IMG/VR virus record: IMGVR_UViG_3300001460_000004
Location: 42,940-85,093 of that record
Direction: 5' to 3' (one strand)
DNA from: a virus
DNA: 42,154 nucleotides
Position numbers and translations under genes: made by a program. Shown here piece after piece: positions 1 through 41,859 of the stretch. How positions within the stretch are numbered: the stretch's first letter is position 1; each line of letters starts with the position of its first letter. Below the pieces are notes generated by a model. That model saw nothing but the letters and a program-made list of their open reading frames with translations. It made no database searches and was not told the DNA's origin.

Positions 1-1394
1 ACCCAGCTTTTATGAAAATCAGTAATGTGCCAAGCATTCATTATGCTAAGTGTGGGACTGACGTAAAAGTCTACATTTGGGCAAACTTTCATCATTAATT
101 CCCTGTTTCGTTCTACCACATCCCATTTAGTACCTTTACGTATGTACTCGGCTTGCGGGCCCATTCCGTCTAAACTTGCTCCTACTGCTACACTATCAAA
201 TTTTTTCCAGTAATCAAACACTTCTCGATCTTTTAGTTTAGTATGTGTAAAGTTTGTATTGTACACAAGACGCACGTCAAACTTTCCTCGCTTTTCAAGT
301 TCATCTAAAATATTATAATGTTCTTTCATCATCAGTGGCTCGCCACCTGCAAAGTAAATTTGTTCTACAAATTCTAAGTGTGGTTCTAATTGCTCCCACA
401 TATCCATTTCAGTACGACCAGCATAGTTAAGTACCTGATTTTGTTTTTTCCATTCAGGCCCGGCTAGTGCAGCTTGATCTTTATACCAACTACTACTAAA
501 AATATGCCCACAACTTCTACAACTCAAATTACACAAATTGCTAAATCGAATATCCCAATAGGTCATTTCAAATTTATCAGCTGACCCATCTGATTGAGTA
601 GCTAATGCACGTTCAATATGATGCCCGTGGTGTTTGTTTGCACTTTTTCTACCACTAAAAAATCCACTGTTTTCACTCTCATAGCAACGCACACATGCTT
701 TGCTTGGTTTTTCATTTAGCATGTTATTGCGTATTTCACGCATGCCAGGTCCATTCCAAATTTCTTCAAGTGTATTTTCTTTTGTGTTTCCTACATCACC
801 ATCATGTTCTGCCATACAACAAGGATATGCACCGCCAGTAGGCCATGCATGCAAATGTACCCAAGGATACATGCAAAACATTTTACTTTCGTCTAATAAA
901 AAGTTCTCACGATTGCTTAATTGTTTTAAATCTATTTTAAGAGGATTAGCACTTCCATATTCGTATATTTCTTTTTCACTAAGTGGATGTTTGTTTATTT
1001 TATGTTTTTTCCATCCTTCATCGATGCATGCTTTTACAGTAATTGGAACTTCGTCTGAACTCATAGCTTTCAGTAATTCAAACTCGTCTCCAATATGAGG
1101 ATTTGATGAAAGTAATATTACAAAAAAATTACTAATGTCTTGTTGATTTAATTCATTTTGTAAATTTCGTAATACTAAACCAACTTTACTGTTTGGTGTG
1201 TATAAATCTCCTGTACTATGTTTGACAATAATGCGATCTTTATTTTGATACTTGTCTTTTCGTATCGATGCAATAGTATTAGCTAGAGCTGTTTGTGAAC
1301 TTTCGTAATCTGTAAAGTCCCAAACATCTAAATCAATTCGTCCAACAATGTTGTAAACTTTTTCTAAGTCATTTAGTCTGTTTATTATTTTCAT
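1..1394 (-). CDS. Radical SAM protein with N-terminal twitch (half-SPASM) domain, 3' end off the window
   Basis: Partial: about 464 codons from an ATG at 1394, still open at base 1. Domains in order: about 170 residues of unrecognised N-terminal domain; a half-SPASM cluster beginning FCMYPWVHLH, with Gx4C then CC (PCC), a GN turn and CVRC; then the radical SAM core with CNLSCRSC (CxxxCxxC, binding the 4Fe-4S cluster that cleaves S-adenosylmethionine) and the GGEP motif (FAGGEPLMM). The order twitch-then-core matches what I recall as the phage and marine 'N_Twi' radical SAM family. The start overlaps the stop of the preceding gene as ATGA, so translation is coupled. The long N-terminal extension is absent from the other four radical SAM genes here. 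Substrate unknown. The family call is firm; the reaction is not inferred. Confidence 0.88.
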   Translation of the reverse strand, partial: MKIINRLNDLEKVYNIVGRIDLDVWDFTDYESSQTALANTIASIRKDKYQNKDRIIVKHSTGDLYTPNSKVGLVLRNLQNELNQQDISNFFVILLSSNPHIGDEFELLKAMSSDEVPITVKACIDEGWKKHKINKHPLSEKEIYEYGSANPLKIDLKQLSNRENFLLDESKMFCMYPWVHLHAWPTGGAYPCCMAEHDGDVGNTKENTLEEIWNGPGMREIRNNMLNEKPSKACVRCYESENSGFFSGRKSANKHHGHHIERALATQSDGSADKFEMTYWDIRFSNLCNLSCRSCGHIFSSSWYKDQAALAGPEWKKQNQVLNYAGRTEMDMWEQLEPHLEFVEQIYFAGGEPLMMKEHYNILDELEKRGKFDVRLVYNTNFTHTKLKDREVFDYWKKFDSVAVGASLDGMGPQAEYIRKGTKWDVVERNRELMMKVCPNVDFYVSPTLSIMNAWHITDFHKSW

Positions 1395-2728
1395 AGTGTA
1401 TTGTACCATTCGGATATTTCTGGGAATGTGTCCTGGAAATTCTTATCACGACGAACATCATATTGTGAAAAGAAATGTTTGAAGTCGTTGTGTAATTTGG
1501 GCATATCAAAACTATCACTATGTGGAGTTTTAACCACGTCCAAATAATCAATTAGTCTTTGTGTATGATTAATTTCATGTTCGTGTATAATATCATCGCG
1601 GTGTGAATACTTGTCTAACCAATTTTGCAATCTTTCTTTAAATCTTGTTCTCAAATAATTAGGCATTATCAAAGCACTTTGAAAACTAGGAAAACGTAAT
1701 ATATTAAGTGTGAAATTAACTCTTTCCTTTCCATATTGTTCTTTTAATGTTACCATCTCATCTAAGTATTCAGGTAAACTTTCTAAACACAATGCATTAA
1801 TTGTACACATACTGTGTACTGCGGTTAACTTACTGTTTAACAATACATGCATATTATCTATCCATTGTTGATAATCTAATCCATCACGTATGTATTCAGC
1901 TTGGGTACCAACAGCTTCACAACTGGTATAAATTTCTACACTAGGAAGATCCTCTGTAGCATCTAAAAACTCTTGAACTTTTTTAGTATCAAAGCCTAGA
2001 TTGCTATTAATTGCTAATTTTGTTTTTGACTTGCCTCTATTTTCTTTAAACCATTCTATTAACTTCCAAGTATGGCCACTCATCAATGGTTCTCCGCCTG
2101 TAATACGTAGTTCATCTAACGTGCGATGTAAGTCACTTTCCCACCATTTAAAAAATGCTTCAATATAAGGATTTGTTTCAGTATATTTATACAGCTGACT
2201 ACTGGCATGCTCATGAGTAAAATGGTTTCTACCATCACTAGCAAGTTCTGTATAAGCACCGTTTTTCTTAATGTCTTTGACCCATGTTGTGCTAAACGCT
2301 GGGTTACAGTAGCTACATGCAAACTGACATGTCCTATCAAATGCAATTTCTAATGTTTTTAAATTAACATCTTCTTCAACTGGGGTTTGATATGCTTGTA
2401 TTAATTCTTGCTCAGGATAAATTTTACTCTTATATACACGATCGCTTATGTTGTTGCGATCAATATCTTCAATTTTCCAACAATACTCACAACCTTTTGG
2501 ACGCTTACCGCATTTCATTAAACGCCTATCGTCTTTCTTTTCTGGTGTATTGTGCAACATTTTTGGATTTTCAATCACAGCATTTACATCAATTTTATGT
2601 GCAGGCGGATGATGGCAACTAGTTGTCATCCCACTTCCTAACCATATAGTAGCGTTATACCATTTTGCACCGCAAAATGAAGGACTTATTTTATCAAGTA
2701 CTTGCTGGCGAAATTCAAGATCATTCAT
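1391..2728 (-). CDS. Radical SAM protein, twitch type (445 aa)
   Basis: A complete 445-residue protein. Near the N-terminus it has a cysteine pattern SFCGAKW, then Gx4C (GMTTSC) followed by HHPPAHKI, and GCEYCW around residue 80. This is a variant of the half-SPASM cluster in which CC is replaced by CHHPP. The core has CQFACSYC (CxxxCxxC) near residue 135 and TGGEPLM near residue 210, which corresponds to the SAM-binding GGE motif. It closely resembles the product of 3848-5272 in layout (CxxPP.HKI, CxYCW.IED, a C-terminal FP-E--WY/W ending), so the two are probably paralogues. It starts at an ATG that shares one base with the TAA of the gene before it (TAATG) and ends in an ATGA overlap with the next. 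Substrate unknown. Confidence 0.88.
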   Translation of the reverse strand: MNDLEFRQQVLDKISPSFCGAKWYNATIWLGSGMTTSCHHPPAHKIDVNAVIENPKMLHNTPEKKDDRRLMKCGKRPKGCEYCWKIEDIDRNNISDRVYKSKIYPEQELIQAYQTPVEEDVNLKTLEIAFDRTCQFACSYCNPAFSTTWVKDIKKNGAYTELASDGRNHFTHEHASSQLYKYTETNPYIEAFFKWWESDLHRTLDELRITGGEPLMSGHTWKLIEWFKENRGKSKTKLAINSNLGFDTKKVQEFLDATEDLPSVEIYTSCEAVGTQAEYIRDGLDYQQWIDNMHVLLNSKLTAVHSMCTINALCLESLPEYLDEMVTLKEQYGKERVNFTLNILRFPSFQSALIMPNYLRTRFKERLQNWLDKYSHRDDIIHEHEINHTQRLIDYLDVVKTPHSDSFDMPKLHNDFKHFFSQYDVRRDKNFQDTFPEISEWYNTL

Positions 2729-3864
2729 TATAATGTTTCAATCCATTTCTTAAAATTATTTGGAAATTCATCTTTTAGCTGCTGGCTATATTCTAAAAAT
2801 CTTTGTTGATTATGCAGGCATATATTTTTTGCTTGTTGTTGAAAAGTATTTAAGTCGCTTTTACACATAGATAAAATAGTTTGTGCTATTCCTTCGGCTC
2901 TAGTCTCGCCATCTTCTATACTATCCCAACTTTCATCAATGAGACTGCTAAACGTTTGAAACCCTAAATTATGCAAATGTTTGTAGAAATACTGACTACC
3001 CATTGCAACAAACGGGTGCCCAATAATTATAGGTTTCCAAATTTTTTCAGTTCTAAACATTGGGGATTCTTGGAAAATAGTTTCACTTACTAAACTAAAA
3101 TATGTATCAATATAAGGTTCGGGTTTTATGTATGCCTCTCCCCATTCAGCATGTCCACCAACTTTAAACAAATGACTTTTTATATTACGATCAATTGAAG
3201 GTCTAGCTATACGCTGTGCATAACGGTCAACTTCATACTGTTTTGGTAATAACACAATTGGTTCTATTTCATCCATTAAGTTTGTATCAGCTTCGTATAC
3301 CTGCATGCCACCACGTGGTGCTGCACGTTCATGTAGGTTAGTGTACAAACTGTCTTGCAATAAATTAAGTTGCCGTAAACGTGCTAGCATCCATTTGCGA
3401 TGTGTTCGCATACGCCCGTTTAAAAATAAAAATGTATATGGTTTATCTTTTTTGTTATGTATTGCACTCACACTTGACATTGCTTGAATGTTTTCATCAA
3501 AGTTGCTTAACTTAACTGCAAAGTTATCGTGATTATAGTAATCAACATCTTCTGCTATTTCACCTCCACTAATAACTGACATTTTTCGATCTAACACTAA
3601 ATCTAAAATATTTAAATGCACAAATTGCCCTGACATTGTAGTGCTACCTTCTGCAGGATTACTAAACACAAACTTTACACCTTGATCAATAAAACTTCTT
3701 ATTTTTTCATTGTGTTCTGCAACAGTCGTCCTGCCAACAATGTAAGTTGCATTAACATCAAATTCCTCTTTGCCAAAATCAAAAAAGTCACTATGTGCTA
3801 ACGGAGCTAGTAATTCTGGCACTTCACAATTATAATCAATCAATAGTTTATGTGTTGTCAGCAT
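2728..3864 (-). CDS. Glycosyltransferase-like protein, GT10 (fucosyltransferase)-like C-terminal half (378 aa)
   Basis: The C-terminal half carries a run SLVSETIF, then FRTEKIWKPIIIGHPFV, then LHNLGFQTF. This resembles the donor-nucleotide-sugar region of GT10-like enzymes (an S/E-x-T-E-K-x-W-K-P element followed by a GhPF loop). The N-terminal half contains NGRMRTHRKWMLARLRQL, a basic stretch often seen in phage homologues. It has no signal peptide or membrane segment, so it is probably cytoplasmic. It sits between two radical SAM genes in one operon, overlapping the upstream gene by 17 bases and the downstream gene by one base (TAATG). The natural inference is transfer of a sugar in the same pathway. 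The fold assignment is moderate; donor and acceptor are unknown. Confidence 0.6.
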   Translation of the reverse strand: MLTTHKLLIDYNCEVPELLAPLAHSDFFDFGKEEFDVNATYIVGRTTVAEHNEKIRSFIDQGVKFVFSNPAEGSTTMSGQFVHLNILDLVLDRKMSVISGGEIAEDVDYYNHDNFAVKLSNFDENIQAMSSVSAIHNKKDKPYTFLFLNGRMRTHRKWMLARLRQLNLLQDSLYTNLHERAAPRGGMQVYEADTNLMDEIEPIVLLPKQYEVDRYAQRIARPSIDRNIKSHLFKVGGHAEWGEAYIKPEPYIDTYFSLVSETIFQESPMFRTEKIWKPIIIGHPFVAMGSQYFYKHLHNLGFQTFSSLIDESWDSIEDGETRAEGIAQTILSMCKSDLNTFQQQAKNICLHNQQRFLEYSQQLKDEFPNNFKKWIETL

Positions 3865-5272
3865 GGTACTTACATTCTTTCCACCAGTCTATCATTTCTG
3901 GAAATGTTGCTTTAAAATTTGTATTGCGTCTAGTATCGTGTTCTGTAAAAAACCTATAAAAGTCAGCACGATTTTGTTTTTGGTAATCTAAATCAAGCTC
4001 ACTCCCTTTGCTCATCCATGTAATATCACGTTGCATACGTTGTACTTCATAGTCTTTAAATCCATGAAATCTTGTTGCTTCTGTTTCCATATTAGATTTC
4101 ATAAATTCTAGTATGCTTTGCATATAACTAACGTAGCTTGCCGGCAATAGTTGCAGACTTTGCCATGTGGGTTGTCTTAACAACGGAGTATCAAACCATA
4201 TACGTTGATATGTCTTACTGTGTGTTTGCCGTAATTTTAATATGTTTTCAAGTAAAGTTTTTAAACTTGTGACGCTTAAATTATTCATTGTAATAATAAA
4301 TGTTAAACTATTTCTCTCAGGAACATCTACTAGGTATTCGGTAACTCTATCCCACATTAAATCAAAATTAAGACCATTACGCATGTATTCAGCTGGTTTA
4401 CCCCACCCGTCAACGCTTACATATTGCATAAAGTGTTCTAATGTATCCGGTGTATTGCAAAGTTTTTGCAAGTATACTTTATATTTTTCCCATAACTTTT
4501 GTTCAACACTAAAATTACTAGTAGTAGATAAGTGCAAATTAGGTTTTGGATTATCTAATACATAATCAAAAACTCGATATGTATTTTTATCCATTATGGG
4601 TTCTCCGCCTGTCATTCTAAAATGTTCTAACTCTGGGTATAACTCAGGCCACCATTCCCAAAACGATTCCACATATGGATTGTGTTCTCTATTTGGGATT
4701 GGGCGTCTTTCTCCAGTAAAATATTCTGGTGCATTGTGCGGTTTTTTTGTAGGATATGCACCACTGGCTTTACTTTCTTGCATCCAACTACTACTAAACT
4801 GTGGTGAACAATAACTGCATTTTAAATTACATACATTGTTAAAGTTAACTTCAACATAACTGGGATTTATATCTTTGAGACTATCACTTGTAATAATTGT
4901 ATCAAAGTCTTTAGCTGCCCAAGGCTCTCCACTGCGATAACTTCTATCACTTAGTTGCCCGCTATCTTCAATTGCCCAACAATAACTACATTCTTTAGGA
5001 CGAACACCCTCAAGCATTAACTTACGTTGCGACTTTTTATATGCGGTGTTGTGTAATCCACTTCGACTGTTTTGTAAATCGCTTTGTTGTATTTTATGCA
5101 ATGGTGGATGATAACAACTGTTGGTGTGCCCAGTTGGCAAATGCAAGCTCACTTGTTTCCATTTGGCAAGACACATACTTGGACTGACTTTATTCAGCCT
5201 TTGTTGCATTAACTCTGCATCGCTTAAGAACTTGCTTTTGAAGTTAACGTCTGATTCGTCACCTTTATTCAT
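3848..5272 (-). CDS. Radical SAM protein, twitch type (474 aa)
   Basis: The start is placed at the ATG at 5272, which forms an ATGA overlap with the upstream stop; a longer reading would need a TTG at 5281. It has an N-terminal half-SPASM-like pattern: SMCLAKW, Gx4C (GHTNSC) followed by YHPPLHKI, then CSYCWAIED. The core has CNLKCSYC (CxxxCxxC) around residue 145 and MTGGEPIMD around residue 220. It is a probable paralogue of the product of 1391-2728, being alike in spacing and in the C-terminal HDTRRNTNFKATFPE element (compare YDVRRDKNFQDTFPE). Two paralogues with a glycosyltransferase-like gene between them suggest duplicated chemistry within one pathway. Substrate unknown. Confidence 0.87.
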   Translation of the reverse strand: MNKGDESDVNFKSKFLSDAELMQQRLNKVSPSMCLAKWKQVSLHLPTGHTNSCYHPPLHKIQQSDLQNSRSGLHNTAYKKSQRKLMLEGVRPKECSYCWAIEDSGQLSDRSYRSGEPWAAKDFDTIITSDSLKDINPSYVEVNFNNVCNLKCSYCSPQFSSSWMQESKASGAYPTKKPHNAPEYFTGERRPIPNREHNPYVESFWEWWPELYPELEHFRMTGGEPIMDKNTYRVFDYVLDNPKPNLHLSTTSNFSVEQKLWEKYKVYLQKLCNTPDTLEHFMQYVSVDGWGKPAEYMRNGLNFDLMWDRVTEYLVDVPERNSLTFIITMNNLSVTSLKTLLENILKLRQTHSKTYQRIWFDTPLLRQPTWQSLQLLPASYVSYMQSILEFMKSNMETEATRFHGFKDYEVQRMQRDITWMSKGSELDLDYQKQNRADFYRFFTEHDTRRNTNFKATFPEMIDWWKECKYHADNT

Positions 5273-6288
5273 TTTAGCCAATCTAAGTAGTTGTGGTTAG
5301 CACGTTGAGGAAAATAATTACTTTTTCCACCGTCTCTTTCAATATCTAATGTTAAACAATGCATACCTCCATCCCAAAAACCTTTGTGTGTAAAGTTACA
5401 TTGTAGCACATTTATACCCAACTTGTCAAGGAATTCTAACAGCCTCGGGTTAGTGCTTATGCTCAATACTGTGTTGTTGTTAAGTACTAACATGTTAACA
5501 CTAAACTGGGTTTCTTTATAATTGCCTACCCAATTCTGTGCATGTTTTTGTATGTGTTCTGCAAATTTGCCATTACCATTTACATTAGAATTTACCCACC
5601 ATTCCCCAAAATGATCGTTACGGGCAGGCATCTCTTCTGGCATATGAAACACTTGCCAATTTGGAAAACTTTCTTTGTAATCTTGTTTCCAATGTGTTGT
5701 AACTATTACTCCTGGGGCAACTGGACAAAAAACACCATCGCTGTGTCCGCCAGTGCGTATCATGTGTACTCGGTAATCCTGTGCCCACTTCAAAAACTCT
5801 ATACTTACTTGCGGCATAACATGTTCATGACTTTCAGCATCAACAAAAATATCCTTGCCAACACGTACAACACTAGGACCGCACAAACAGTTGTTATCTT
5901 CACCTGGCCTAGTTACAATTATTTCTCCTTCTAATTCTCTTAATGCATATTCCCAAGGATCTTTGTAACTTTCATCTAATTGATGATACAATGTATTTCC
6001 TAACACAAGTCCTCTATCACGTGGCATAATAGGTGGCTTAACAAGATATCCACTTGTATCACAGTGCTGCCCTCTATTAACGCTATTAAAACTTGGACGA
6101 GTAACTTTTACCCCGTGTTCAACGAGTATTTTTTCAATGTTTTTTAAATCATTTTTTGTAGTTTCGGTTATTTCAATAAATGCTTCTGCTACATCTGGAT
6201 TGTACTCACTGTAAAACTCTATAGGATATACATCTCCTAACCATACATGTTTTAATTGGTCCCATCCAGTGTGACTATTGATTTGCAT
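5269..6288 (-). CDS. Amidinotransferase-superfamily protein (glycine amidinotransferase-like, 339 aa)
   Basis: Amidinotransferases move an amidino group from arginine to an amine acceptor through a cysteine intermediate. Features visible here: RVGKDIF followed by DYRVHMIRTGGHSDGVF, where H182 and D184 line up with the HxD of the family, and a C-terminal GGMHCLTLDIERDGG, where C311 matches the nucleophile. The length is close to that of the soluble family domain. From memory of the human enzyme, the segment just before RVGKDIF should hold the catalytic Asp, but here it reads CGPSV, so activity or mechanism may differ. The ATG at 6288 is chosen over a TTG at 6312; it has GGAAAG upstream and overlaps the preceding gene by 14 bases. 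In context it could guanidinylate an amino-sugar or an amine product of the operon. Confidence 0.8.
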   Translation of the reverse strand: MQINSHTGWDQLKHVWLGDVYPIEFYSEYNPDVAEAFIEITETTKNDLKNIEKILVEHGVKVTRPSFNSVNRGQHCDTSGYLVKPPIMPRDRGLVLGNTLYHQLDESYKDPWEYALRELEGEIIVTRPGEDNNCLCGPSVVRVGKDIFVDAESHEHVMPQVSIEFLKWAQDYRVHMIRTGGHSDGVFCPVAPGVIVTTHWKQDYKESFPNWQVFHMPEEMPARNDHFGEWWVNSNVNGNGKFAEHIQKHAQNWVGNYKETQFSVNMLVLNNNTVLSISTNPRLLEFLDKLGINVLQCNFTHKGFWDGGMHCLTLDIERDGGKSNYFPQRANHNYLDWLK

Positions 6289-6964
6289 AATAAACTTTCC
6301 ATACCTCGTCAAATAATTCGTTACTCTGGGCCTCTAGTTCACGTTGCATATTAACACAAAATAAATTATAGTCATCATTAATATCTATAATTTGATCAGC
6401 ATAGTCATCATTAACTTTTACATCTTGATAGTAACTCCAATGAAAATCAATAGTGTTCCATGCACTTTCAACTGTTTGAATAAGTCCACTAAGTGGTGTA
6501 TTGTTAGCAACTTCGTTCTGTCTTTTAACGTCTCTAAAATCTTTTTGAACCTCTTGATATATATCAAATGCTAACTCATTTAATTGTTCTGCATTATTGC
6601 ACTCAGGCCAACTTTCATCACGTATACTGTTGTAATGCTCAACAGGATCAATATCAGGTGCAGGTGCTTCTCGATATCTACCGTTAATATTCCATTCTCT
6701 ACATAATGCGTCTTTAAGTTTTGTTTTTATTACTGTAATACGTGCTTTTGGATATGTTCTTCGTAAGAGTGCAGTATCTCTACAATGCGTTAACAAAAAC
6801 GGTCTATCCCAAGACTTGTCTAGATAATACTTGTCGTTGCTGGTATATTCCTTTGCTTCGGAATGAAAATCAAAACTAGTATTGGGTGTTTTCCATTCTT
6901 TGTCAACTAAACAACGATAATAACGGTTTCCTCCTCCGCCAGGATAATAACTAATAATTTGCAT
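6275..6964 (-). CDS. Sulfotransferase-like P-loop protein, tentative (229 aa)
   Basis: The N-terminus reads MQIISYYPGGGGNRYYRCL: a beta-strand followed by a glycine-rich loop at about residues 9-14, in the position where sulfotransferases bind the PAPS phosphosulfate. Further on, THCRDTALLRRTYP followed by ITVIKTKLKDALCREW resembles the second PAPS-contact strand-helix of that fold (usually IxxxRxxxDxxxS). No classical GKS or GKT Walker A is present. The ATG at 6964 shares a base with the upstream TGA (TGATG); a GTG at 6967 would give a GTGA overlap and one more residue. It lies between a glycosyltransferase-like gene and the amidinotransferase. The fold is suggested rather than shown; an unrelated phage family is possible. 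Confidence 0.45.
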   Translation of the reverse strand: MQIISYYPGGGGNRYYRCLVDKEWKTPNTSFDFHSEAKEYTSNDKYYLDKSWDRPFLLTHCRDTALLRRTYPKARITVIKTKLKDALCREWNINGRYREAPAPDIDPVEHYNSIRDESWPECNNAEQLNELAFDIYQEVQKDFRDVKRQNEVANNTPLSGLIQTVESAWNTIDFHWSYYQDVKVNDDYADQIIDINDDYNLFCVNMQRELEAQSNELFDEVWKVYYANQ

Positions 6965-7887
6965 CACCAGCCCTCTGCTTTCCTTATTACATCAATTTCT
7001 TTTTTCATTATATCTAAATTAGTCCAATTTGATTGATAGTGGTGTTTAAAAAATTTACTAACAGTTGAGTCAGCTATGTCAATGACAGGCAAATCTAATT
7101 GTACACTTAAAGCATTACTCACCTGTTGCATATCAACAGATTGATACTCACTGTAAATAGTTTCAAGGCTGTCAAATGATTGTACTTGAGTATAATCCCA
7201 GTCATTAAGCATTGTTAGCCAAGTGCCGTAGCGTGATCCAAGAATGGCTTGCTCACCGTATTCAACGTCACGGCCTACATTGTGCCATATACTGAGATTG
7301 TCCATATTACGCTTATGTACTGCATCCTTAAATTCAACAACATTGGGTTTGCGTCCTCGGTTTAAGCACATTTTAACACCTTCTCTAAACCCTGCTCTCC
7401 AGGCGTGGAATGCACTTCCATTAGGGTAAGTTGTGCTATAACAATCATGCATTGCCCAATACAGTGGATCAAAACAAAATTCTACATCTGTTTCATCATT
7501 GCCTAAACTATTTTCATGTGTACGCATGTTGTACACAAATTCTTTTGTCCAGCTGCTTAATCCACCATTACCATATGTTAGTCCATTTATATGATTTTTT
7601 GCTCTCCATCTGAACACAGCACGTTCGCTTTCTAGGGAATCAAATCGTAAAGTTTGATTGAAAAAGTCCCAGTCTGGTAAATTGTCTCCATCAATTAATA
7701 TAAACCGATCTGTGTTACTAGCATCAGCGGCAGCCTTGTGTGCAGCATCGCTTCCTTTAACACCATCTACACGTTCAGCCCACGGAATATGATTTCGTAT
7801 GCTTATCCAAAATTCTTCTTTCTGAGGTTCATCATAGCTGAGATATATGCAGTCTAAATCTGCTACATCAACTGTTTTAATGTCCAT
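6964..7887 (-). CDS. Glycosyltransferase-like protein with DGD motif (307 aa)
   Basis: The N-terminal strand VDVADLDCIYLSYDEP leads into a segment ending RVDGVKGSDAAHKAA, then a hydrophobic strand FILIDGDNLPDWDFF at about residues 61-75. The DGD is a DxD-type motif, which in GT-A glycosyltransferases coordinates the metal and nucleotide-sugar. The order 'SYDEP, VKG-AHK, hDGDn' recurs in T4-like marine phages as I remember them. The C-terminal region is rich in aromatic residues and has no membrane segment. The start overlaps the upstream gene by 25 bases, which indicates translational coupling. Donor and acceptor are unknown. Confidence 0.6.
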   Translation of the reverse strand: MDIKTVDVADLDCIYLSYDEPQKEEFWISIRNHIPWAERVDGVKGSDAAHKAAADASNTDRFILIDGDNLPDWDFFNQTLRFDSLESERAVFRWRAKNHINGLTYGNGGLSSWTKEFVYNMRTHENSLGNDETDVEFCFDPLYWAMHDCYSTTYPNGSAFHAWRAGFREGVKMCLNRGRKPNVVEFKDAVHKRNMDNLSIWHNVGRDVEYGEQAILGSRYGTWLTMLNDWDYTQVQSFDSLETIYSEYQSVDMQQVSNALSVQLDLPVIDIADSTVSKFFKHHYQSNWTNLDIMKKEIDVIRKAEGW

Positions 7888-8207
7888 TGTTTTGCCTGTT
7901 CTGTGCTGCTTAAAAGTTCAACATGATGTTGATGTGTTGAGTACTCACCAGCATTGCTGGGTATAAGTTTATTTACGTGTACATCTAGGTTGATGTAATA
8001 AATTTTACTATCTTTAACAAATACATTTGAAGAATTTAAATTATACTGGTCTTGTGTAATTTCAATATAGTCTCCTGGTATGTCTTCCATAGTGTATACA
8101 ATTGGTTCACCTGTTTGTTTGTTGTAATACAATCTCCAAAAAGGAACTATCTCTTCAGGCCAAACATAATTTTTCCAAAACTCTTCAAAGATCTCATTGT
8201 TGTTCAT
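7863..8207 (-). CDS. Small conserved-type phage protein, function unknown (114 aa)
   Basis: Not recognised as a characterised family. It is acidic and aromatic-rich at the N-terminus (EEFWKNYVWPEEIVPFWRLY) and appears soluble. The middle alternates hydrophobic and charged residues (YIEITQDQY, SKIYYINLDVHV), consistent with a small beta-rich domain, and it ends in a short helix (TEQAKQWTLKQLM). It overlaps the upstream glycosyltransferase gene by 14 bases and the downstream one by 25, so it is expressed with them and may be an accessory to a transferase. The in-frame ATG at 8207 is the only sensible start. Confidence 0.7.
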   Translation of the reverse strand: MNNNEIFEEFWKNYVWPEEIVPFWRLYYNKQTGEPIVYTMEDIPGDYIEITQDQYNLNSSNVFVKDSKIYYINLDVHVNKLIPSNAGEYSTHQHHVELLSSTEQAKQWTLKQLM

Positions 8208-8937
8208 ATTCTTTTATCCAATCTTTTATATAGTAATGAAATACTCCTTGCTGATGCACTGTATTAATTTTTAAACCAGTTGGTACTCTTTCCCAAACTA
8301 ATTCACGTGTCCAATCGTTTGTTTGTGATTTAATAATGTGTTTTTTCATATGCACAATTGATGGAGAATTTGTTAACGTAACTTTTTCTTTTCCAATTAC
8401 AGTAGCAGCCATTGCATATACTACATCAGTTGTTGGTATAGTTTCGGGAAATTTTATTAATGTTTTAAATTGCTCCCAGTTTTGAAATATATTTCTAACC
8501 AACTCAAAAAACTCTTTTGCAGTATTACTTAGCCTCCAATACACCATTGCATTATATGTATCAGGTAAACAATTTTGATCAAATATACTTCGATAATGTC
8601 TGCTGTTGCTTGTGTTGTTATAATAATCTCGACAACCTGTACTAATTACAAGATCTCTTTTTCTAAATATATCCCAGTAATAATCAATATTACTAGTAAC
8701 CAGGCAATCGGCTTCAAGTTTAATTGTTTCTCTAAACGGGCTAGTGTTAAACACTTGCCAATCATTTGCAAATGCATTAGCATTTGGGTTTTGCATAATG
8801 CGTACATAATCAAACAATGGATCTTCAATTAATACATCAGTTAACAAGCAAACTTGATTGTATGTGTTGTGTTGTTTAATACTGCCAGCCAGGCACTTTG
8901 CACACTCTATGTACTCGTTGCCTGTTGCTACAATCAT
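8194..8937 (-). CDS. Glycosyltransferase, GT8/GT-A-like (247 aa)
   Basis: The N-terminus, MIVATGNEYIECAKCLAGSI followed by KQHN, is the typical first strand and helix of a GT8-like transferase. A hydrophobic strand then meets EAD (IKLEADCLV), the usual position of the metal-binding DxD, here with Glu first. The start is placed at 8937: the open frame extends to a TTG at 9018, but 8937 has AAGG just upstream, lies 10 bases after the previous stop, and begins exactly where the paralogue's fold begins. An ATG at 8997 is a second option and would overlap the preceding gene by 50 bases. It is a paralogue of the product of 8948-9748. Probably cytoplasmic. Confidence 0.68.
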   Translation of the reverse strand: MIVATGNEYIECAKCLAGSIKQHNTYNQVCLLTDVLIEDPLFDYVRIMQNPNANAFANDWQVFNTSPFRETIKLEADCLVTSNIDYYWDIFRKRDLVISTGCRDYYNNTSNSRHYRSIFDQNCLPDTYNAMVYWRLSNTAKEFFELVRNIFQNWEQFKTLIKFPETIPTTDVVYAMAATVIGKEKVTLTNSPSIVHMKKHIIKSQTNDWTRELVWERVPTGLKINTVHQQGVFHYYIKDWIKEYEQQ

Positions 8938-8947
8938 ATACCCTTGT

Positions 8948-9748
8948 TCACTTAGTACTGGCAACAATGTCTCCCAAGTGATGTTTGCCCATGGCATGAA
9001 AATCTGTATCTTGCACAAATATATGTTTTCTAAGTTTTTTATTATCTTGAAACTGTATTTTAAACGTTTGATTGTCCTGGCTTGACAATTGATGTATTGG
9101 ATCTATACTGGCCATACGCCAAGGTAGCACAGGCCATTTTCCAGTATTGCCGTATATTGTATTCATTGCAATACTCAATGCAAAATCGTTACGGTATTGA
9201 CTTTGGCCAATGCGATACAAATACCTATAATAGTCCCAATTGTTTTGTATTAACCCAATCATTTCAAATATCAATTGTGCAGCACAGCTCTTTTTAAAAT
9301 AAAGTACAGTAGCCCAACTCATGTTAAAATTAGTAGCACCAAAGCTATTGAGATGACTATAATCTGTAACACCGGTTATGTCATATGCACTTCCCATTGG
9401 AAGTATGTCAGCATCAATATCAAGTACAACACGTAGCTGATCGCTGCATACTACATAGTCTGCATCTAGTAATATTGTTTGATCATACGGGCTAAGTTCA
9501 TACACATTATATCTATTTTTATTCTGCCAGGCTACGGTTTCTTTTAAATCATCAAACCATCTCTCACCGTTTTCTTTAGGTGCTGCAACTTGTATTGTAT
9601 TAGCATACTGAAGTTTTCTATCACTGTTGGTTATTACAGTGGTTGGTAAATTGAGATGTTTTTGTATTCGGTTTGCATTCCAATCTGCCATCTCTGTATA
9701 GGAAATAGCAGGATTGTCAAATGCAAATATGATTACACCTTGGCTCAT
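8948..9748 (-). CDS. Glycosyltransferase, GT8/GT-A-like with DAD motif (266 aa)
   Basis: It begins with a GT-A strand (GVIIFAFDNPAISYTEMA) and has a classic hydrophobic strand running into DAD (DQTILLDADYVV) at about residues 90-101. That is the Mn-binding DxD of GT8-type transferases. Further motifs are DILPMGSAYDITG and, at the C-terminus, FVQDTDFHAMGKHH, whose HxxGxxxH pattern recalls the terminal metal ligand of GT8 enzymes. The ATG at 9748 makes an ATGA overlap with the stop of the promoter-proximal gene. With the next gene it forms a tandem paralogous pair, which could add two successive sugars or reflect divergence after duplication. Confidence 0.68.
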   Translation of the reverse strand: MSQGVIIFAFDNPAISYTEMADWNANRIQKHLNLPTTVITNSDRKLQYANTIQVAAPKENGERWFDDLKETVAWQNKNRYNVYELSPYDQTILLDADYVVCSDQLRVVLDIDADILPMGSAYDITGVTDYSHLNSFGATNFNMSWATVLYFKKSCAAQLIFEMIGLIQNNWDYYRYLYRIGQSQYRNDFALSIAMNTIYGNTGKWPVLPWRMASIDPIHQLSSQDNQTFKIQFQDNKKLRKHIFVQDTDFHAMGKHHLGDIVASTK

Positions 9749-10053
9749 CTATTTTTACGTGACATTTCGTATTCTTGTAACCAAGCGTTCATTTGTTCTT
9801 GCCAATGTTGCATTACTAAGTTCTTAAATGTTGATACATTTATTTTTATTGGAGTATCGTATACATCCAATAATACAACTTCATCATCAGTGCATGCTGA
9901 TAGCAAACTAATCAACTCTGGTCCAGTTTTCCACAAGCCATTATTGTGTGCAAAAAGCATCTTTGCTTGGTATTTTTCTTTTAGCACTCTACGGCTAGCA
10001 CTGTGGTCAAAACGACTTCGTGCGTGTTGTACAACTTGTTCAATATTATTCAT
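9745..10053 (-). CDS. Small phage protein at the head of the auxiliary operon (102 aa)
   Basis: The protein starts MNNIEQVVQHARSRFDH and continues with a basic helix, a short FAHNNGLWKTGPEL element, a beta segment VVLLDVYDTPIKINV and a C-terminal helix with HWQEQMNAW. I recall similar small proteins in T4-like marine phages but no function. The start at ATG 10053 is chosen over a TTG at 10101, which would lie upstream of the promoter. That ATG falls about seven bases after the -10 box, where transcription should begin, and there is no Shine-Dalgarno sequence, so the message is likely leaderless. It is the first gene of the operon and overlaps the next by ATGA. Confidence 0.7.
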   Translation of the reverse strand: MNNIEQVVQHARSRFDHSASRRVLKEKYQAKMLFAHNNGLWKTGPELISLLSACTDDEVVLLDVYDTPIKINVSTFKNLVMQHWQEQMNAWLQEYEMSRKNR

Positions 10054-10059: not shown

Positions 10060-10088
10060 ATTATAACAAAGATTTATGATAAAGTCAA
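10060..10088 (-). promoter_or_regulatory. Sigma-70-type promoter for the auxiliary operon
   Basis: On the minus strand: TTGACT (10088-10083), a 17-base spacer, then TATAAT (10065-10060). The -10 is perfect, the -35 differs by one base, and the spacing is ideal. It lies just downstream of the terminator that ends the late block, and points into the eleven-gene auxiliary operon. This predicts early expression by unmodified host polymerase, independent of gp55. Confidence 0.8.
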
Positions 10089-10102: not shown

Positions 10103-10129
10103 ATAAAAGAGCCACTTGGGCTCTTTTAT
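10103..10129 (-). terminator. Rho-independent terminator, perfect 11-bp stem
   Basis: An inverted repeat with arms ATAAAAGAGCC (10103-10113) and GGCTCTTTTAT (10119-10129) and a 5-base loop. Read on the minus strand, the second arm runs into TTTT. It ends transcription of the late structural block just after the gene at 10153-11145 and insulates the sigma-70 promoter that follows. The stem is A/T-symmetric, so it could also act from the opposite strand. Confidence 0.85.
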
Positions 10130-10152: not shown

Positions 10153-11145
10153 TTACGTTGTTGTAGCTGCAACTGATTGAGTACCCCAGGTGTTTGTTAA
10201 GAATGTAGTACTTGGTGGTGTAACTGTTACAATAGTAGCTGGTGCAGTACCAAAGCTACCAAATGGTGAGCTAGTTGCAGTACCGCCTGTGATAACATCA
10301 CTACTACCAGCGCCTGATCCACCTGGATCACTCCAAGTTGTTGTTAATACTATCTGTGTTAAAGAACTAGCTGTTTTTGCTTGAACTTGAATAAACTGTC
10401 CTGTGTATGGAGCAGTGTCAGCAAATTGCTTATAAAGTAGTGTATCACTTGTAGTTAAATCGTACCATCCAGTATTACTTGCTAATGTATTTGGCGTACC
10501 TGTACCACCAACTTTTGTAGTTCCTGTATAACTTACACCGTTGATGTTTTGTGTAGCAGTACCGCCAGAGAGGTAAATGTCACCAACTAGTGTAGTTGCA
10601 AGATCATTCCATTCTGCATCAGCTAAGTTACCAGTTGATGTTTTACTGCAAGCCCATTTAATTAAACCGCCGCTGTTAAAGAAATAACGTGCCTCGTTTG
10701 CACTACCAAATGTTATAGTGTGAGAGAACACAATAGTCCAGGCACTACTACCAGAACCAGTAGATGATGTTTTGCTTGATGTGCCAGAAAATGCTACAAT
10801 AGGTGTTCCACTTCCTGCAGCACTTCCTCTGTTTGTGTTCAGTGTTCCTAAGTCACTAGCAACCGCAGTTAAAATTGAAATAGTGTCACCTGCACTTGGT
10901 GCTGTTCTACTAGTAATTGAAGTGCCTTGATGTGATGCAATGGTACTAATAGTGTTAACTAGCGTTGCCCATTGTGTTGCGGAGATCGTTGCTGCTGCCG
11001 AAACTGTTGCAATTGTTCCTGCTTGCCCGTATCCTTTATCTGCACTTCCTGTACCGTAGATGTCGTTTACATTGCCGTCTGCTGTATTAGCTGCGAAACC
11101 ATTATAGTCAGTGGCAACGATTTGAGATCCTGATGTGTATGTCAT
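10153..11145 (-). CDS. Virion structural protein, tail-fibre/appendage type (330 aa)
   Basis: Very rich in Thr, Ser, Gly and Ala with almost no charged residues, as in phage fibre and appendage proteins. The N-terminal pattern (SGSQIVATDYNGF, YGTGSADKGYGQ, then ATQWATLVNTI) is one I recall from marine T4-like phage structural proteins. The remainder is probably beta-structured. SD-like GGGAAG lies about 10 bases before the ATG. It is the last gene of the late block, 52 bases after the preceding fibre gene and just before the terminator. No late promoter is seen directly upstream, so it is likely expressed by read-through from the promoters near 12620-12653. Confidence 0.65.
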   Translation of the reverse strand: MTYTSGSQIVATDYNGFAANTADGNVNDIYGTGSADKGYGQAGTIATVSAAATISATQWATLVNTISTIASHQGTSITSRTAPSAGDTISILTAVASDLGTLNTNRGSAAGSGTPIVAFSGTSSKTSSTGSGSSAWTIVFSHTITFGSANEARYFFNSGGLIKWACSKTSTGNLADAEWNDLATTLVGDIYLSGGTATQNINGVSYTGTTKVGGTGTPNTLASNTGWYDLTTSDTLLYKQFADTAPYTGQFIQVQAKTASSLTQIVLTTTWSDPGGSGAGSSDVITGGTATSSPFGSFGTAPATIVTVTPPSTTFLTNTWGTQSVAATTT

Positions 11146-11197: not shown

Positions 11198-12592
11198 CTA
11201 GTTAATTGTTACAATGGCCTCTACTAGGCCTATATTGTTTGAGGACTTACTTTCAAGTGCTCGGCCAATTACATTAAATGCCTTAGCTTCGTTCTTTCTC
11301 GCTGCTCTTGCCAATCCGTCACCGGCTGGCACAAGTCGATCGCCTTTGTTGATTGAACCTGCAACTTTTACAGGAACACGTCCTGTCATCGCTACAGGTG
11401 GATGTGTGTTGTCGTCACCTGCGCCAGCATTCATAAGATATGCAGCACTCGTACTTATCACACCAAATACTTTTTCGCTAAGTTCAATGGCACATTCGGT
11501 AATTTCTTTTTCTCCACCCAACATAACCACTGTTCCTGGCTCGTATACATCGTCTGATGCAAACCTTTCTGCAACGTCAGCATATTGAGCACTAGTACTG
11601 GTAGCAAATACAGTATTAAAATAACTACTGGCACTACCAATATTACCAACACCGTTACCGGCACTGTTAACAATTGCACTAGCAGCTGCATTTACATTAA
11701 GATTAAGTGCATTAGGAATGCTAACTTCAGTTGTGCTACCGTTAATAAAGATAGCATTGTTTGTAACTCCGCCATCGTTGACTCTAATAGCAACGTTAGC
11801 ATCTTGTGTTACATTTGAAATTTGTACTTCGCTAGTTGCAGTGTTAACACTAATTTTAGCATCTTGGTCTGCACCAACTGTAAGTCCTGTATCATTTAGT
11901 ACTCCAAGTGTTCCCGAAGTGGTATCATTGGCATCGGATCTAAGGAACTGTGTACTATCTAAACTGTCAAGTAGTTGTGAATCTGTTGCTGTTCCTCTAA
12001 ACAGTACACTACTTACACTACTGCTCAATTGCATGCCTGGGCCAATTGTTGAAAAACCTGTTATGGCTGGATTTGGAGTGAAAGTCGAATCCTTAGACAT
12101 AATAGCAACAATTGAATCTTTAACATAAAATTGAATAATAACATGGTCTACTGCGGTATTATCTGCTACTGTTGTAACAATTGCACCACTAGTACCTTGT
12201 CCACTTGAACTTGCAGGACCTACTAGAATAAATGCTGATCCGTTGTAGACTTTAAGTTGTTGGTTAGTTGTGTCAAACCAAAGATCACCAGCAACGTTGT
12301 TTGTGGGCTGGCTTGCACTTGCTGTACTAGCACTGATAACTTTGAAAATTGTACCATTATAAACTTTCATAACAGCGTTTGTGGTATCCCACCAAAGCTG
12401 TCCAGTTAGAGGTGCAGATGGGGCACTTGTATTTGCTCCACTTTCCAGCAAATGTATAAAGTTTTCATCTAAGAATTCTCCATACCCTGCGTAGTTTTTT
12501 CCCACAAGCACCATGCTTGAGGTTGTATTAATAGTACCGTCGGCAATTGTTGCAAACGTTGTACCATTAGTTAAATTAATTGTATATGCCAT
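11198..12592 (-). CDS. Tail-fibre-type protein with C-terminal YEPGTVV/STSAAYLMN domain (464 aa)
   Basis: The N-terminal part carries two repeats of a short unit (GQLWWDTTNAVMKVYNG and GDLWFDTTNQQLKVYNG, near residues 64-120). The middle is a Ser/Thr/Asn-rich low-complexity beta region. The C-terminal ~140 residues hold QYADVAERFASDDVYEPGTV, a VMLGGEKEIT strand, VFGVISTSAAYLMN and GRVPVKVAGSINKGDRLV. This arrangement is common at the ends of phage fibres and recalls chaperone or self-cleaving fibre tips; I do not see enough to claim proteolysis. It has its own late promoter candidates (12620-12653) and a strong GGAG Shine-Dalgarno. Probably a host-contact fibre or its attachment. Confidence 0.7.
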   Translation of the reverse strand: MAYTINLTNGTTFATIADGTINTTSSMVLVGKNYAGYGEFLDENFIHLLESGANTSAPSAPLTGQLWWDTTNAVMKVYNGTIFKVISASTASASQPTNNVAGDLWFDTTNQQLKVYNGSAFILVGPASSSGQGTSGAIVTTVADNTAVDHVIIQFYVKDSIVAIMSKDSTFTPNPAITGFSTIGPGMQLSSSVSSVLFRGTATDSQLLDSLDSTQFLRSDANDTTSGTLGVLNDTGLTVGADQDAKISVNTATSEVQISNVTQDANVAIRVNDGGVTNNAIFINGSTTEVSIPNALNLNVNAAASAIVNSAGNGVGNIGSASSYFNTVFATSTSAQYADVAERFASDDVYEPGTVVMLGGEKEITECAIELSEKVFGVISTSAAYLMNAGAGDDNTHPPVAMTGRVPVKVAGSINKGDRLVPAGDGLARAARKNEAKAFNVIGRALESKSSNNIGLVEAIVTIN

Positions 12593-12645: not shown

Positions 12646-12653
12646 TATTTATA
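12646..12653 (-). promoter_or_regulatory. Candidate T4-type late promoter (exact TATAAATA)
   Basis: An exact TATAAATA octamer on the minus strand, overlapping the stop region of the gene at 12649-13248 and pointing to the fibre gene at 12592. Together with 12620-12627 it makes a tandem late-promoter pair 26 bases apart for one abundant structural gene. Confidence 0.6.
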
Positions 12654-13248
12654 CGGTACTTAAATCTGTTAGGGTTTGTATTCTCACAGTGTAATCTATC
12701 TGGATTTGTCTGTTTAAACTTTTTTGCACAGGATGGAAAATTACATGTGTTAATAGTAATTGATCTATTCCTGATCCCTGCCATGCTTTTAATCCTAATT
12801 CATCAAAAACATAATCACCGTTAAAATTGGTACTATTATCAAATGCCTGTTGACCAGTTGGTTCACCATAATCTAATAAACATGTTACCAACACATCAGT
12901 GTATACTTTACCTGATGTATGTAGTACTGTCAGCTTGTTTTGTGTTGGATCTGTATTAGCAGCTGAATTATCATCAACTACTTTTGAAAATGTTTGATTG
13001 TATAAATCAGCATTTTGTCCTGTTGTATTTGGTGGCAAGTATGTGATAACACCGGTTGGGTCAACACTACTACCACCATTGCCAAATGCCATAGTGTAAA
13101 TATATCCAATGTTTCTATTGGCAATACTTTGAGCTAGAGCTTGACTAATATTTTCATAATGAATAGCGTTCTTTTTATCAACAAGAACCTCGCCATTGTT
13201 GGGATCAAATATTTTAACTTTCCCTTGTACTGCTACTGGAATTCTCAT
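12649..13248 (-). CDS. Conserved-type virion structural protein (199 aa)
   Basis: The N-terminus, MRIPVAVQGKVKIFDPNNGE, is a beta-strand pair, followed by VLVDKKNAIHYENISQALAQ and a region YTMAFGNGG. A later stretch TSGKVYTDVLVTCLLDYGEP leads into VFDELGLKAW, and the C-terminus ends in strands with QIDYTVRIQTLTD. I recall this style of protein downstream of the baseplate genes of marine T4-like phages but cannot assign a T4 number. The ATG makes an ATGA overlap with the tiny upstream gene and has GGAGCAGAG as Shine-Dalgarno. The position, after the giant tail protein and before the fibres, suggests an appendage or fibre-attachment component. Confidence 0.65.
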   Translation of the reverse strand: MRIPVAVQGKVKIFDPNNGEVLVDKKNAIHYENISQALAQSIANRNIGYIYTMAFGNGGSSVDPTGVITYLPPNTTGQNADLYNQTFSKVVDDNSAANTDPTQNKLTVLHTSGKVYTDVLVTCLLDYGEPTGQQAFDNSTNFNGDYVFDELGLKAWQGSGIDQLLLTHVIFHPVQKSLNRQIQIDYTVRIQTLTDLSTV

Positions 13249-38766: not shown

Positions 38767-39708
38767 ATGACAAAAAGCCCTAAAAGAATTAATTACTTAA
38801 ATAATCGAGATATTCTCAAAGAAATACACAAAAGCAAAGCTACTTTTTGTAGTTATGTGGACAGTGACCACGATCATCAATTTGATATTGTTTTACTAGG
38901 TTTGAGTAAAATTAATATGCGAACAATTGCAGAAGCAAGACGAAACCGGGCTGCACGTATTACTAAAGAGACCGGCACACCAGTTGATGAAAAAACAATT
39001 CCAAATACTGATCTAGTATTTCGTGTTATGACATTTGAACATATCCCAATTGATCCTAAACCCAAAAAGAAAAAATCAACAGCTCGAACAAAAACAATTG
39101 ACTTAGCCGAAATATTAGATGAAGTTGAAGTTGAAGAAGATAATAATGATCTAGAAACAAGTGCAAGAGACCCTAGTGTCATATTATACGAAAAACACAA
39201 AGATCATGTGCGAGTAAATTTTCCACCGTTCTTTCATTATCGCATTACTGATCACAAAGTTCCGTATATTGTAGGCAAAAGCCACTGGCTTGGCGGTATG
39301 GAAAATGGATATTTTAGTAAAGATCATGGTGCTATGACTAATAAACTAGCACTAATGTTTATTAAACTGTGTGAAAGATATGCAACCCGAAGCAACTGGC
39401 GTGGGTATACTTACAACGAAGAAATGCGTGGCCAAGCATTATTGCAACTAAGCCAAATTGGATTACAGTTTGACGAAGGGAAAAGTTCTAACCCGTTTGC
39501 ATATTATACAGCAGCAATCACTAACTCATTTACTCGAGTATTAAATATTGAAAAACGTAATCAAAACATACGCGATGATATACTAGAAATGAATGGGTTG
39601 AATCCAAGCTGGACAAGAACAAACGCAGAATATTATAAAAAGATTGCAGAAACTGGAACAGATACCGTTGACGCTAAAAAACCAGCTGCCTCTAGTACAG
39701 CAAAATAA
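38767..39708 (+). CDS. 55: Late-transcription sigma factor gp55, with large internal insertion (313 aa)
   Basis: T4 gp55 directs host polymerase to late promoters (TATAAATA) together with the sliding clamp. The N-terminal INYLNNRDILKEIHKSK (residues ~7-23) matches its opening. From residue ~190, TNKLALMFIKLCERYATRSN, WRGYTYNEEMRGQALLQLSQ and FDEGKSSNPFAYYTAAITNS align with the sigma-2-like core of T4 gp55. Between these lie ~160 residues absent from the 185-residue T4 protein, with a lysine run (PKPKKKKS) followed by an acidic stretch (EVEVEEDNN). The ATG at 38767 has GGAG upstream; the longer frame from TTG at 38713 would lie within the promoter. Late promoter elements are present in the same window. 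Confidence 0.87.
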   Translation: MTKSPKRINYLNNRDILKEIHKSKATFCSYVDSDHDHQFDIVLLGLSKINMRTIAEARRNRAARITKETGTPVDEKTIPNTDLVFRVMTFEHIPIDPKPKKKKSTARTKTIDLAEILDEVEVEEDNNDLETSARDPSVILYEKHKDHVRVNFPPFFHYRITDHKVPYIVGKSHWLGGMENGYFSKDHGAMTNKLALMFIKLCERYATRSNWRGYTYNEEMRGQALLQLSQIGLQFDEGKSSNPFAYYTAAITNSFTRVLNIEKRNQNIRDDILEMNGLNPSWTRTNAEYYKKIAETGTDTVDAKKPAASSTAK

Positions 39709-40843: not shown

Positions 40844-41859
40844 TGACAAATTTATTTAAAAGAGCAGCAGTGTGTACAGACTTGCATTACGGATTAAAAA
40901 GTAATAGTTTACAGCATAATACTGATTGTAGTAATTTCATTAAATGGTTTTGCAACGAAGCCAAAAAAGAAGGATGCGATACTGCTATGTTTTTAGGTGA
41001 TTGGCATAATCACAGGGCTAGTATTAATTTGCAAACACTTCAGCACAGCTTAGAGTCAATAGAATTACTCAGTCAAACATTTGATCGAGTGTTTTTTATT
41101 CCAGGAAATCATGATTTATACTATAGAGATCGAAGAGATATTAGTAGTATTGAATGGGCAAAGCATTTAGACAATGTGCATATTTTAAATGATTTTCACA
41201 CAGAAGGAGATGTAGTATTTGCACCCTGGCTAGTAAGTGACGATTATAAAAAAATCCCTAAACTCAAAGGCGAATATTTAATGGGGCATTTTGAGTTGCC
41301 ACACTTTAAAATGAACGCTATGGTAGAGATGCCGGATCATGGTGAATTACAATTGAATCATTTTGATAATTTTGGCAGTGTGTTTAGTGGACACTTTCAT
41401 ATGCGACAAACTAAAGGTAATATAACCTATATGGGAAACTGTTTCCCTCACAATTTTGCCGATGCCGGGGATGATGAACGTGGCATGATGATTCTAGACT
41501 GGGGTCAACAACCTCAGTATCGAGCATGGCCTGATCAACCCAAATACCGAGTATACAATTTGAGTAACTTAGTTGAACGTCCAGGTGAACTGCTGGATCC
41601 TAACATGTATGTGCGGGTTTTACTTGATGTTGATATTAGTTACGAAGAAGCAAGTTTTATCAAAGAAACATTTGTTGAAGAATACAAATGTAGAGACATT
41701 GCATTAATTAAAAAACAAATGGAATTTGAAGAAGAAATAGACACTGGTGAATTAAAGTTTGAAAGCGTTGATCAAATTGTAACTGATCAACTGACTAGAA
41801 TTGACGGCGGAGGAACTTATCAGTCAAAATTATTGTTGGAGATATATCAAAATCTATAA
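40843..41859 (+). CDS. 47: Recombination endonuclease subunit gp47 (Mre11/SbcD-like, 338 aa)
   Basis: gp47 is the nuclease half of the gp46/gp47 complex that resects DNA ends for recombination-dependent replication. All calcineurin-like phosphoesterase motifs are visible: CTDLHYG (DxH), FLGDWHNHR (GDxxH), IPGNHDLYY (GNHD), MGHFE (GH) and SGHFHM (GHxH). Length equals the T4 protein (339). The ATG at 40843 shares a base with the previous TAA; the longer TTG frame from 40804 is rejected. In related phages gp46 is expected nearby; here the next gene is a radical SAM protein, so gp46 may lie beyond the window. Confidence 0.94.
   Translation: MTNLFKRAAVCTDLHYGLKSNSLQHNTDCSNFIKWFCNEAKKEGCDTAMFLGDWHNHRASINLQTLQHSLESIELLSQTFDRVFFIPGNHDLYYRDRRDISSIEWAKHLDNVHILNDFHTEGDVVFAPWLVSDDYKKIPKLKGEYLMGHFELPHFKMNAMVEMPDHGELQLNHFDNFGSVFSGHFHMRQTKGNITYMGNCFPHNFADAGDDERGMMILDWGQQPQYRAWPDQPKYRVYNLSNLVERPGELLDPNMYVRVLLDVDISYEEASFIKETFVEEYKCRDIALIKKQMEFEEEIDTGELKFESVDQIVTDQLTRIDGGGTYQSKLLLEIYQNL

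Follow-up and report, generated by a model that had tools for sequence, protein, structure and literature searches.

What would a bacteriophage build with five radical S-adenosylmethionine (rSAM) enzymes encoded in one operon beside its tail-fibre genes? The question is raised by positions 42,940-85,093 of the 230,036-bp virus record IMGVR_UViG_3300001460_000004 (full record designated G000), a stretch of 42,154 nucleotides that is referred to below as the window. An initial annotation of the letters alone had described positions 1 to 10,053 of the window as an auxiliary operon combining rSAM, amidinotransferase, sulfotransferase-like and four glycosyltransferase-like (GT-like) genes. We propose that this operon belongs to a vertically inherited glycan- or protein-modification island of T4-like jumbo phages, whose target would be a virion (tail-fibre) glycoprotein, a reading to which we give a little less than an even chance. 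Assignment of the source virus to the T4-like jumbo phages is based on its capsid protein, which shares 66% identity with the PA5oct jumbo-phage capsid, and on u199, the third gene upstream of the operon, whose relatives occur in 87 cultured jumbo-phage records.

Organization of the operon and its continuation

Scanning IMG/VR with g8 returned at least 585 relatives, and synteny was read in the best 80 of these and in seven loci found via g7 (about 87 loci). The per-gene presence counts are based on the 45 loci that span u330 to g14 completely. A second set of 80 loci was fetched via g14, which is not an rSAM gene, thereby avoiding ascertainment on rSAM. Counts for a second block of genes are based on the 58 loci with at least 7.8 kb of downstream sequence. 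The genes are listed below in window coordinates, or in coordinates of the full record where G000 is indicated.

9745..10053, minus strand: g1, core 102-residue protein without Pfam or PHROG match (43/45 loci)
8948..9748, minus strand: g2, core GT-like protein, weakly supported (LDADYV motif; profile cross-match to g3; no PDB match; 44/45)
8194..8997, minus strand: g3, core GT8/glycogenin-like protein, weak (PHROG 1903, E 4e-14; glycogenin-1, E 0.11; 45/45)
7863..8207, minus strand: g4, small protein (37/45)
6964..7887, minus strand: g5, core, probable GT-A glycosyltransferase (DGDN motif; 45/45)
6275..6967, minus strand: g6, accessory slot gene (YPGxGGxRY motif; 4/45)
5269..6285, minus strand: g7, accessory amidinotransferase of the AGAT/StrB1/SxtG superfamily (6/45)
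3848..5272, minus strand: g8, core rSAM carrying a twitch domain at its N-terminus (NF033640, 313.6 bits; cluster Cys invariant in 61 homologues)
2728..3864, minus strand: g9, slot protein that is possibly GT-B and whose family recurs (29/45; no PDB profile match)
1391..2728, minus strand: g10, core twitch rSAM (NF033640, 301.5 bits; Cys invariant in 61 homologues)
1..1409, minus strand: g11, core twitch rSAM truncated by the window edge, with an additional domain at its N-terminus (NF033640, 342.7 bits; full gene G000:42627-44348)
G000:41419-42630, minus strand: g12, rSAM, continuation of the operon past the window
G000:40125-41456, minus strand: g13, rSAM, continuation of the operon
G000:39068-40132, minus strand: g14, continuation of the operon
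G000:38317-38883, after g14: MTA/SAH-nucleosidase-like gene
G000:36505-38010, after the nucleosidase-like gene: NodU-type carbamoyltransferase
G000:34362-35399, strand opposite to the operon: AMT2, second amidinotransferase
G000:33217 and G000:32105, opposite strand: two GT-like genes
G000:29235, opposite strand: DegT/PseC-like aminotransferase
G000:28298, opposite strand: epimerase
x30289, minus strand: lies among these second-block genes of the opposite strand

Eleven open reading frames (ORFs) of the minus strand run from position 10053 down to the window edge, in agreement with the initial annotation, except that the window end cuts the operon and that two more rSAM genes and g14 lie beyond it. 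The leftward extension suggested there led from these genes to the carbamoyltransferase gene and then to the second block. All junctions overlap, by 1 to 50 nt, when homologue-supported starts are used. The overlaps are of the 4-nt ATGA type for g1/g2, g5/g6 and g7/g8 (the latter from the ATG at 5272), of 1 nt (TAATG) for g9/g10, and of about 50 (g2/g3), 14 (g3/g4), 25 (g4/g5), 11 (g6/g7), 17 (g8/g9) and 19 nt (g10/g11) for the others. The 10-base gap reported previously arises only if a later ATG is taken as the start of g3.

An invariant core interrupted by three slots

The loci share one gene order: uBIG-u199-u464-u330-g1-g2-g3-g4-g5-[slot 1]-g8-[slot 2]-g10-g11-g12-[slot 3]-g13-g14-carbamoyltransferase. 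Core genes were present in 43 to 45 of the 45 spanned loci, the exceptions being g4 and the carbamoyltransferase gene (33 loci, some flanks ending first). Among the loci selected with g14, g13 was directly upstream of g14 in 73/73, the carbamoyltransferase gene followed g14 in 65/65, and 71/71 had at least three rSAM genes within 8 kb. The invariant core consists of the five rSAMs, g1 to g5, g14 and the carbamoyltransferase. Retention of the order in the approximately 87 loci and in the 80 g14-selected loci rules out a random assembly of auxiliary genes, which gene-by-gene analysis of co-occurrence could have revealed. This near-absolute co-occurrence upholds the central idea of the initial annotation, namely that genes inherited together make a compound, guanidinylated or glycosylated, or modify a surface. 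Its emphasis on the amidinotransferase and the sulfotransferase has to be shifted to the core, as g7 and g6 are both exchangeable slot genes (6/45 and 4/45, respectively). The 11-gene operon is real but forms one part of a larger conserved island, which in the best-supported reading is inherited vertically.

Inserted genes numbered 119, 89 and 36 in the three slots, followed by 18 in the interval after g4 and 0 to 8 in the remaining intervals. Exchangeable genes enter almost only these three slots. The superfamily of g9 contributes 97 slot genes. Sugar enzymes encoded in the slots and flank include a dTDP-glucose dehydratase-like protein, an HddA-like (heptose) kinase, an RfaE-like (heptose) nucleotidyltransferase and a PseC-like transaminase; an MTA/SAH nucleosidase and a B12-rSAM are further slot products. 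The nucleosidase-like gene occupies slot 3 in 14 loci. Its location beside rSAM genes makes sense since 5-deoxyadenosine inhibits rSAM enzymes (PMC8102628), and its product possibly clears this inhibitor.

In the second block (58 loci), AMT2 was detected in 37 loci, x30289 in 49, x32105 in 45, the DegT gene in 24 and the epimerase gene in 18. The guanidinylated product proposed initially gains little from g7, a rare slot gene, but guanidinylation remains plausible through AMT2, owing to its presence in 37 of the 58 loci.

The island recurs in at least 150 uncultured giant-phage contigs of IMG/VR. None of the cultured phages searched has it. For five island proteins (g8, g5, u330, g1 and g14), tblastn against 50,697 phage records was without a match, unlike the capsid protein and u199, which do match there. 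One genome scan for relatives of g5 returned only a viral contig in a Rhodobacteraceae metagenome-assembled genome. An origin from a host genome was rejected because this single scan brought up no g5 relative of cellular origin.

Identity of the enzymes

The rSAMs g8, g10, g11, g12 and g13 scored 289 to 410 bits against NF033640 (N_Twi_rSAM), all above its curated cut-off of 170 bits, and the presence of rSAM genes is confirmed for the three that lie in the window (g8, g10 and g11). The four cysteines of the N-terminal auxiliary cluster and the CxxxCxxC motif were 100% conserved in 49 to 61 homologues of each protein, arguing that the five core rSAMs are probably active enzymes. In a midpoint-rooted FastTree phylogeny, g13 formed a separate group (support 1.0) and g12 mostly did so (0.92), g8 and g10 shared one mixed clade, and g11 was weakly resolved. 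As the tree is partly mixed, we base the claim of positional orthology on synteny and best matches. Searches for viperin/pVip returned partial matches of 20-39 bits to the rSAM core and none over the full profile. As these matches are to generic rSAM features, a defence function was rejected.

The identification of g7 as an amidinotransferase is borne out by matches to HsvA (E 6e-10), AGAT (E 2.6e-9) and StrB1 (E 4.3e-7) and by conservation of the catalytic residues D154, H190 and C319. The catalytic Asp, His and Cys are also invariant in AMT2, for which the best PDB match was SxtG (E 1.7e-15). Both proteins match AGAT, StrB1, HsvA and SxtG, and in homology and catalytic residues they agree with the Arg:X amidinotransferases (AGAT, StrB1, SxtG). 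The carbamoyltransferase bears the Pfam domains Carbam_trans_N (E 1.6e-39) and Carbam_trans_C (E 7.3e-47), as do NodU and TobZ.

The four GT-like assignments (g2, g3, g5 and g9) are weak: g3 and g5 have weak matches, and g2 and g9 have none among PDB profiles. The AlphaFold2 model of g5 is of modest confidence (predicted local distance difference test, pLDDT, 79.7; mean pairwise identity of the family 72%) and weakly matches the GT-A folds of HAS, HddC and SunS (best E 1.8e-3), making g5 a probable GT-A glycosyltransferase. The model of g14 is confident (pLDDT 89), has no fold match in the PDB, and has related models solely in uncultured phages and Atu_ph07. The sulfotransferase assignment of g6 was abandoned: no 3'-phosphoadenosine-5'-phosphosulfate-dependent sulfotransferase profile was matched in Pfam, NCBIfam, PHROGs or PDB profiles, leaving only the YPGxGGxRY motif, and a sulfated product is unsupported.

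Transcription signals

The single promoter proposed initially is corroborated by two elements located upstream from g1, in an arrangement repeated in relatives.

10105..10127, minus strand: intrinsic-terminator hairpin AAAAGAGCC-CAAGT-GGCTCTTTT, between u330 and g1, with hairpins at the equal site in relatives
10060..10088, minus strand: sigma70-like promoter TTGACT-17-TATAAT, its -10 box 6 nt before the g1 ATG, kept in relatives

An exact TATAAT lies 4-10 nt ahead of the ATG in 43 of 84 g1 genes; for any one of the other genes the count is 0-9 out of 46-89. The g1 transcript is possibly leaderless. The function of the -35-like TTTACT present in relatives is uncertain because it partly overlaps a terminator arm. 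A T4-late-like box, TATAAATA, precedes u464, and the record has this box ahead of two stand-alone genes as well. The latter, a sulfotransferase-like and an rSAM gene (G000:178725-179936 and G000:7546-8766, respectively), have the box 13 nt before the ATG, which suggests that they are transcribed late and without a leader.

The tail-fibre neighbours and a proposed glycan acceptor

Three genes of the tail-fibre region precede the operon.

12649..13248, minus strand: u199, conserved baseplate-region protein, locus anchor (PHROG 11259, E 7.9e-74)
11198..12592, minus strand: u464, tail-fibre protein whose C-terminus is chaperone-like (Peptidase_G2/IMC-like)
10153..11145, minus strand: u330, proposed glycan acceptor, a tail-fibre-module protein rich in Ser and Thr

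The product of u464 matched tail-fibre PHROGs and, just below the cut-off, Pfam Peptidase_G2 (E 4.7e-5). Ser and Thr account for 32% of the residues of u330 (family mean 30.5% versus a background mean of 12.8%), the highest content among the proteins examined. After removal of the divergence shared with u199, g5 and g8, the distance residuals of u330 correlated with those of g2 (r 0.71) and g3 (0.63), less with those of g1 (0.42) and u464 (0.35), and not with those of g13 (0.05) and g14 (0.10). No GtrA or Wzx flippase was found in nine genomes and no transmembrane segment in the cassette proteins of the window genome, which points to a cytoplasmic acceptor.

In the proposed mechanism, the phage would make an activated sugar, possibly amino-, guanidino- or carbamoyl-substituted, and the rSAMs would perform carbon-centred chemistry on either this sugar or its acceptor. 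The cytoplasmic GT-like proteins g2, g3 and g5 would then attach the sugar to a phage protein of the same cell, most likely u330. Genes exchanged in the slots would alter the glycan and hence the surface with which the virion recognizes its host or shields itself.

Several observations weigh against this mechanism. The products of g2, g3, g5 and g9 are assignable as GTs only weakly, and the substrate of the rSAMs is not readable from their sequences. A host flippase could export the product. The cassette promoter is sigma70-like and a T4-late-like box lies ahead of u464, so that the cassette may be expressed early and act on the host. The covariation of u330 with g2 and g3 could come from exchange of a linked u330-g3 block; the lower correlation of the intervening g1 weighs on this explanation, although it is noisy because g1 is short. 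A different four-rSAM cassette at the same position in two cultured phages, described below, counts in favour of the proposed reading and at the same time raises the chance that the island rSAMs act on protein rather than sugar.

Alternative targets

The main rival is remodelling of the host surface, in which the enzymes would rebuild sugars of the host lipopolysaccharide (LPS) or O-antigen and block superinfection. Such a role has been proposed for GTs in the host-recognition cluster of pelagimyophages, also with radical SAM cassettes (PMC7029224), and it would fit the resemblance of slot genes to LPS-sugar enzymes (RfaE-, HddA- and PseC-like) and the cassette's own sigma70-like promoter. The fixed linkage to tail-fibre genes, the covariation of u330 with g2 and g3, and the lack of a membrane protein in the window-genome cassette and of GtrA/Wzx in the nine genomes speak against it, and we consider it unlikely, if worth serious attention.

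The rSAMs might instead act directly on a phage protein, a tail protein being crosslinked, epimerised or hydroxylated in the manner of RiPPs (ribosomally synthesized and post-translationally modified peptides), with glycosylation being secondary. Agrobacterium phage Atu_ph07 and Sinorhizobium phage Phosso harbor, after u199 and u464 homologues, a different cassette of four rSAMs that weakly resemble the peptide maturases DynA, PapB and DarE, well under cut-offs. Unlike the island, this cassette has rSAMs of other families, no GT-like match, a JmjC/cupin protein and a CHxS-repeat protein. The latter (L122:20062-20952, 296 residues, in Atu_ph07; L121:19306-20226, 306 residues, in Phosso; 42% identical to each other) ends in invariant CHxS repeats, CHSSCHASCHNSRSRR and CHTSCHASCHSSRSRR, respectively, and is a candidate rSAM substrate in the cultured phages. 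Relatives of it were found in no IMG/VR contig besides Atu_ph07 itself. Direct protein modification would also agree with g12, whose closest match among PDB profiles is the sactipeptide maturase SkfB (E 7e-6). In the window lineage, no Cys-repeat or RiPP precursor-like protein was found, the only CxxxCxxxC proteins of cassette loci being a ferredoxin and two rSAMs; ten window proteins scanned gave no RRE/PqqD match, and sugar enzymes dominate the slots and flank. These features make direct protein modification improbable.

Aminoglycoside-type pathways also combine amidinotransferase, DegT-type aminotransferase, carbamoyltransferase and rSAM genes. This shared combination and the matches of the amidinotransferases to StrB1 and SxtG would be accounted for if the island produced an aminoglycoside-like natural product acting as a toxin or signal, which is very improbable given the fixed synteny with tail-fibre genes and a cassette without transporter or membrane gene. 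DNA hypermodification by glycosyl transfer, a form of the DNA modification envisaged in the initial annotation and known for phage GTs from work cited in PMC12619734, has the least to recommend it, since no thymidylate-synthase-type base hydroxymethylase was found in the record and the island is linked to tail-fibre, not replication, genes.

Relation to described systems

Radical SAM-rich T4-like marine viruses (PMC5332604) and rSAM cassettes in a tail-fibre host-recognition cluster (PMC7029224) are already known. In pelagimyophages, a hypervariable host-recognition cluster is located at the tail-fibre genes and contains GTs, with radical SAM cassettes in one genome comparison (PMC7029224). 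It resembles the virion-glycan island proposed here in its tail-fibre site in T4-like phages and in combining GTs with rSAMs. It differs in that the region is variable, with rSAMs as added cassettes, in contrast to a rigid five-rSAM frame with defined slots, and in phage group, the at least 150 contigs of the island being PA5oct/Atu_ph07-related. The T4-like marine genome TARA_ERS488813_N000010 (PMC5332604) encodes an A-type Fe-S carrier and has 12 rSAM genes, a likeness to G000, which has 13 twitch-rSAM matches (5-14 in relatives of at least 100 kb) and the scaffold gene IscU; that report gives gene counts without operon, order or glycan link. The IscU gene is at G000:222846-223214 (Pfam NifU_N, E 2.7e-52) and also occurs in 2 of 13 other cassette-bearing records.

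Phage-encoded GTs decorate virion proteins in mycobacteriophages (Freeman 2023, cited in PMC12619734); a few GTs take part, without rSAM, carbamoyl- or amidinotransferase. In the isolated Vibrio phages K566/K567 (L120), GT8- and GT4-like genes are interspersed among five twitch rSAMs, of which four already carry a radical SAM annotation. This interleaving is independent and counts in favour of the reading proposed here.

The papers searched contained no fixed five-rSAM frame with slots, g14-carbamoyltransferase linkage or AMT2 block. None joined radical SAM, amidinotransferase, phage and glycosyltransferase, nor phage, radical SAM, tail fiber and post-translational modification. They likewise contained no named phage pathway with such a set, in line with the initial annotation, which knew of none.

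Other features of the window and record

Twitch rSAM genes lie on both sides of a gp47-like nuclease gene (window 39644-42154; G000:82583-87755), and another rSAM-like gene (G000:87755-88783) comes after gp46. A single 4,837-residue virion structural ORF (window 13396-27909) is located upstream of u199, also in relatives, Atu_ph07 and Phosso.

39644..40843, plus strand: additional twitch rSAM that overlaps the gp47-like gene and lies outside the island (G000:82646-83746, 192.7 bits)
41859..42154, plus strand: further twitch rSAM, cut by the window end, between gp47-like and gp46-like genes (G000:84807-85922, 324.8 bits)

Implications

We tentatively raise, as a doubtful proposition, that the island is a new kind of system, in which five fixed rSAMs together with cytoplasmic glycosyl-, carbamoyl- and amidinotransferases would produce a carbon-modified tail-fibre glycan and the three slots would diversify the surface by which the virion recognizes its host. 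Radical SAM enzymes are oxygen-sensitive and costly. Despite this cost, five of them are maintained in a near-perfectly syntenic frame in at least 150 IMG/VR contigs. The island offers g14, u330 as the proposed acceptor, and the parallel rSAM cassette of the cultured phages Atu_ph07 and Phosso as targets for study. If the glycan is built on tail fibres, radical chemistry would serve virion decoration, with defined slots for variation.

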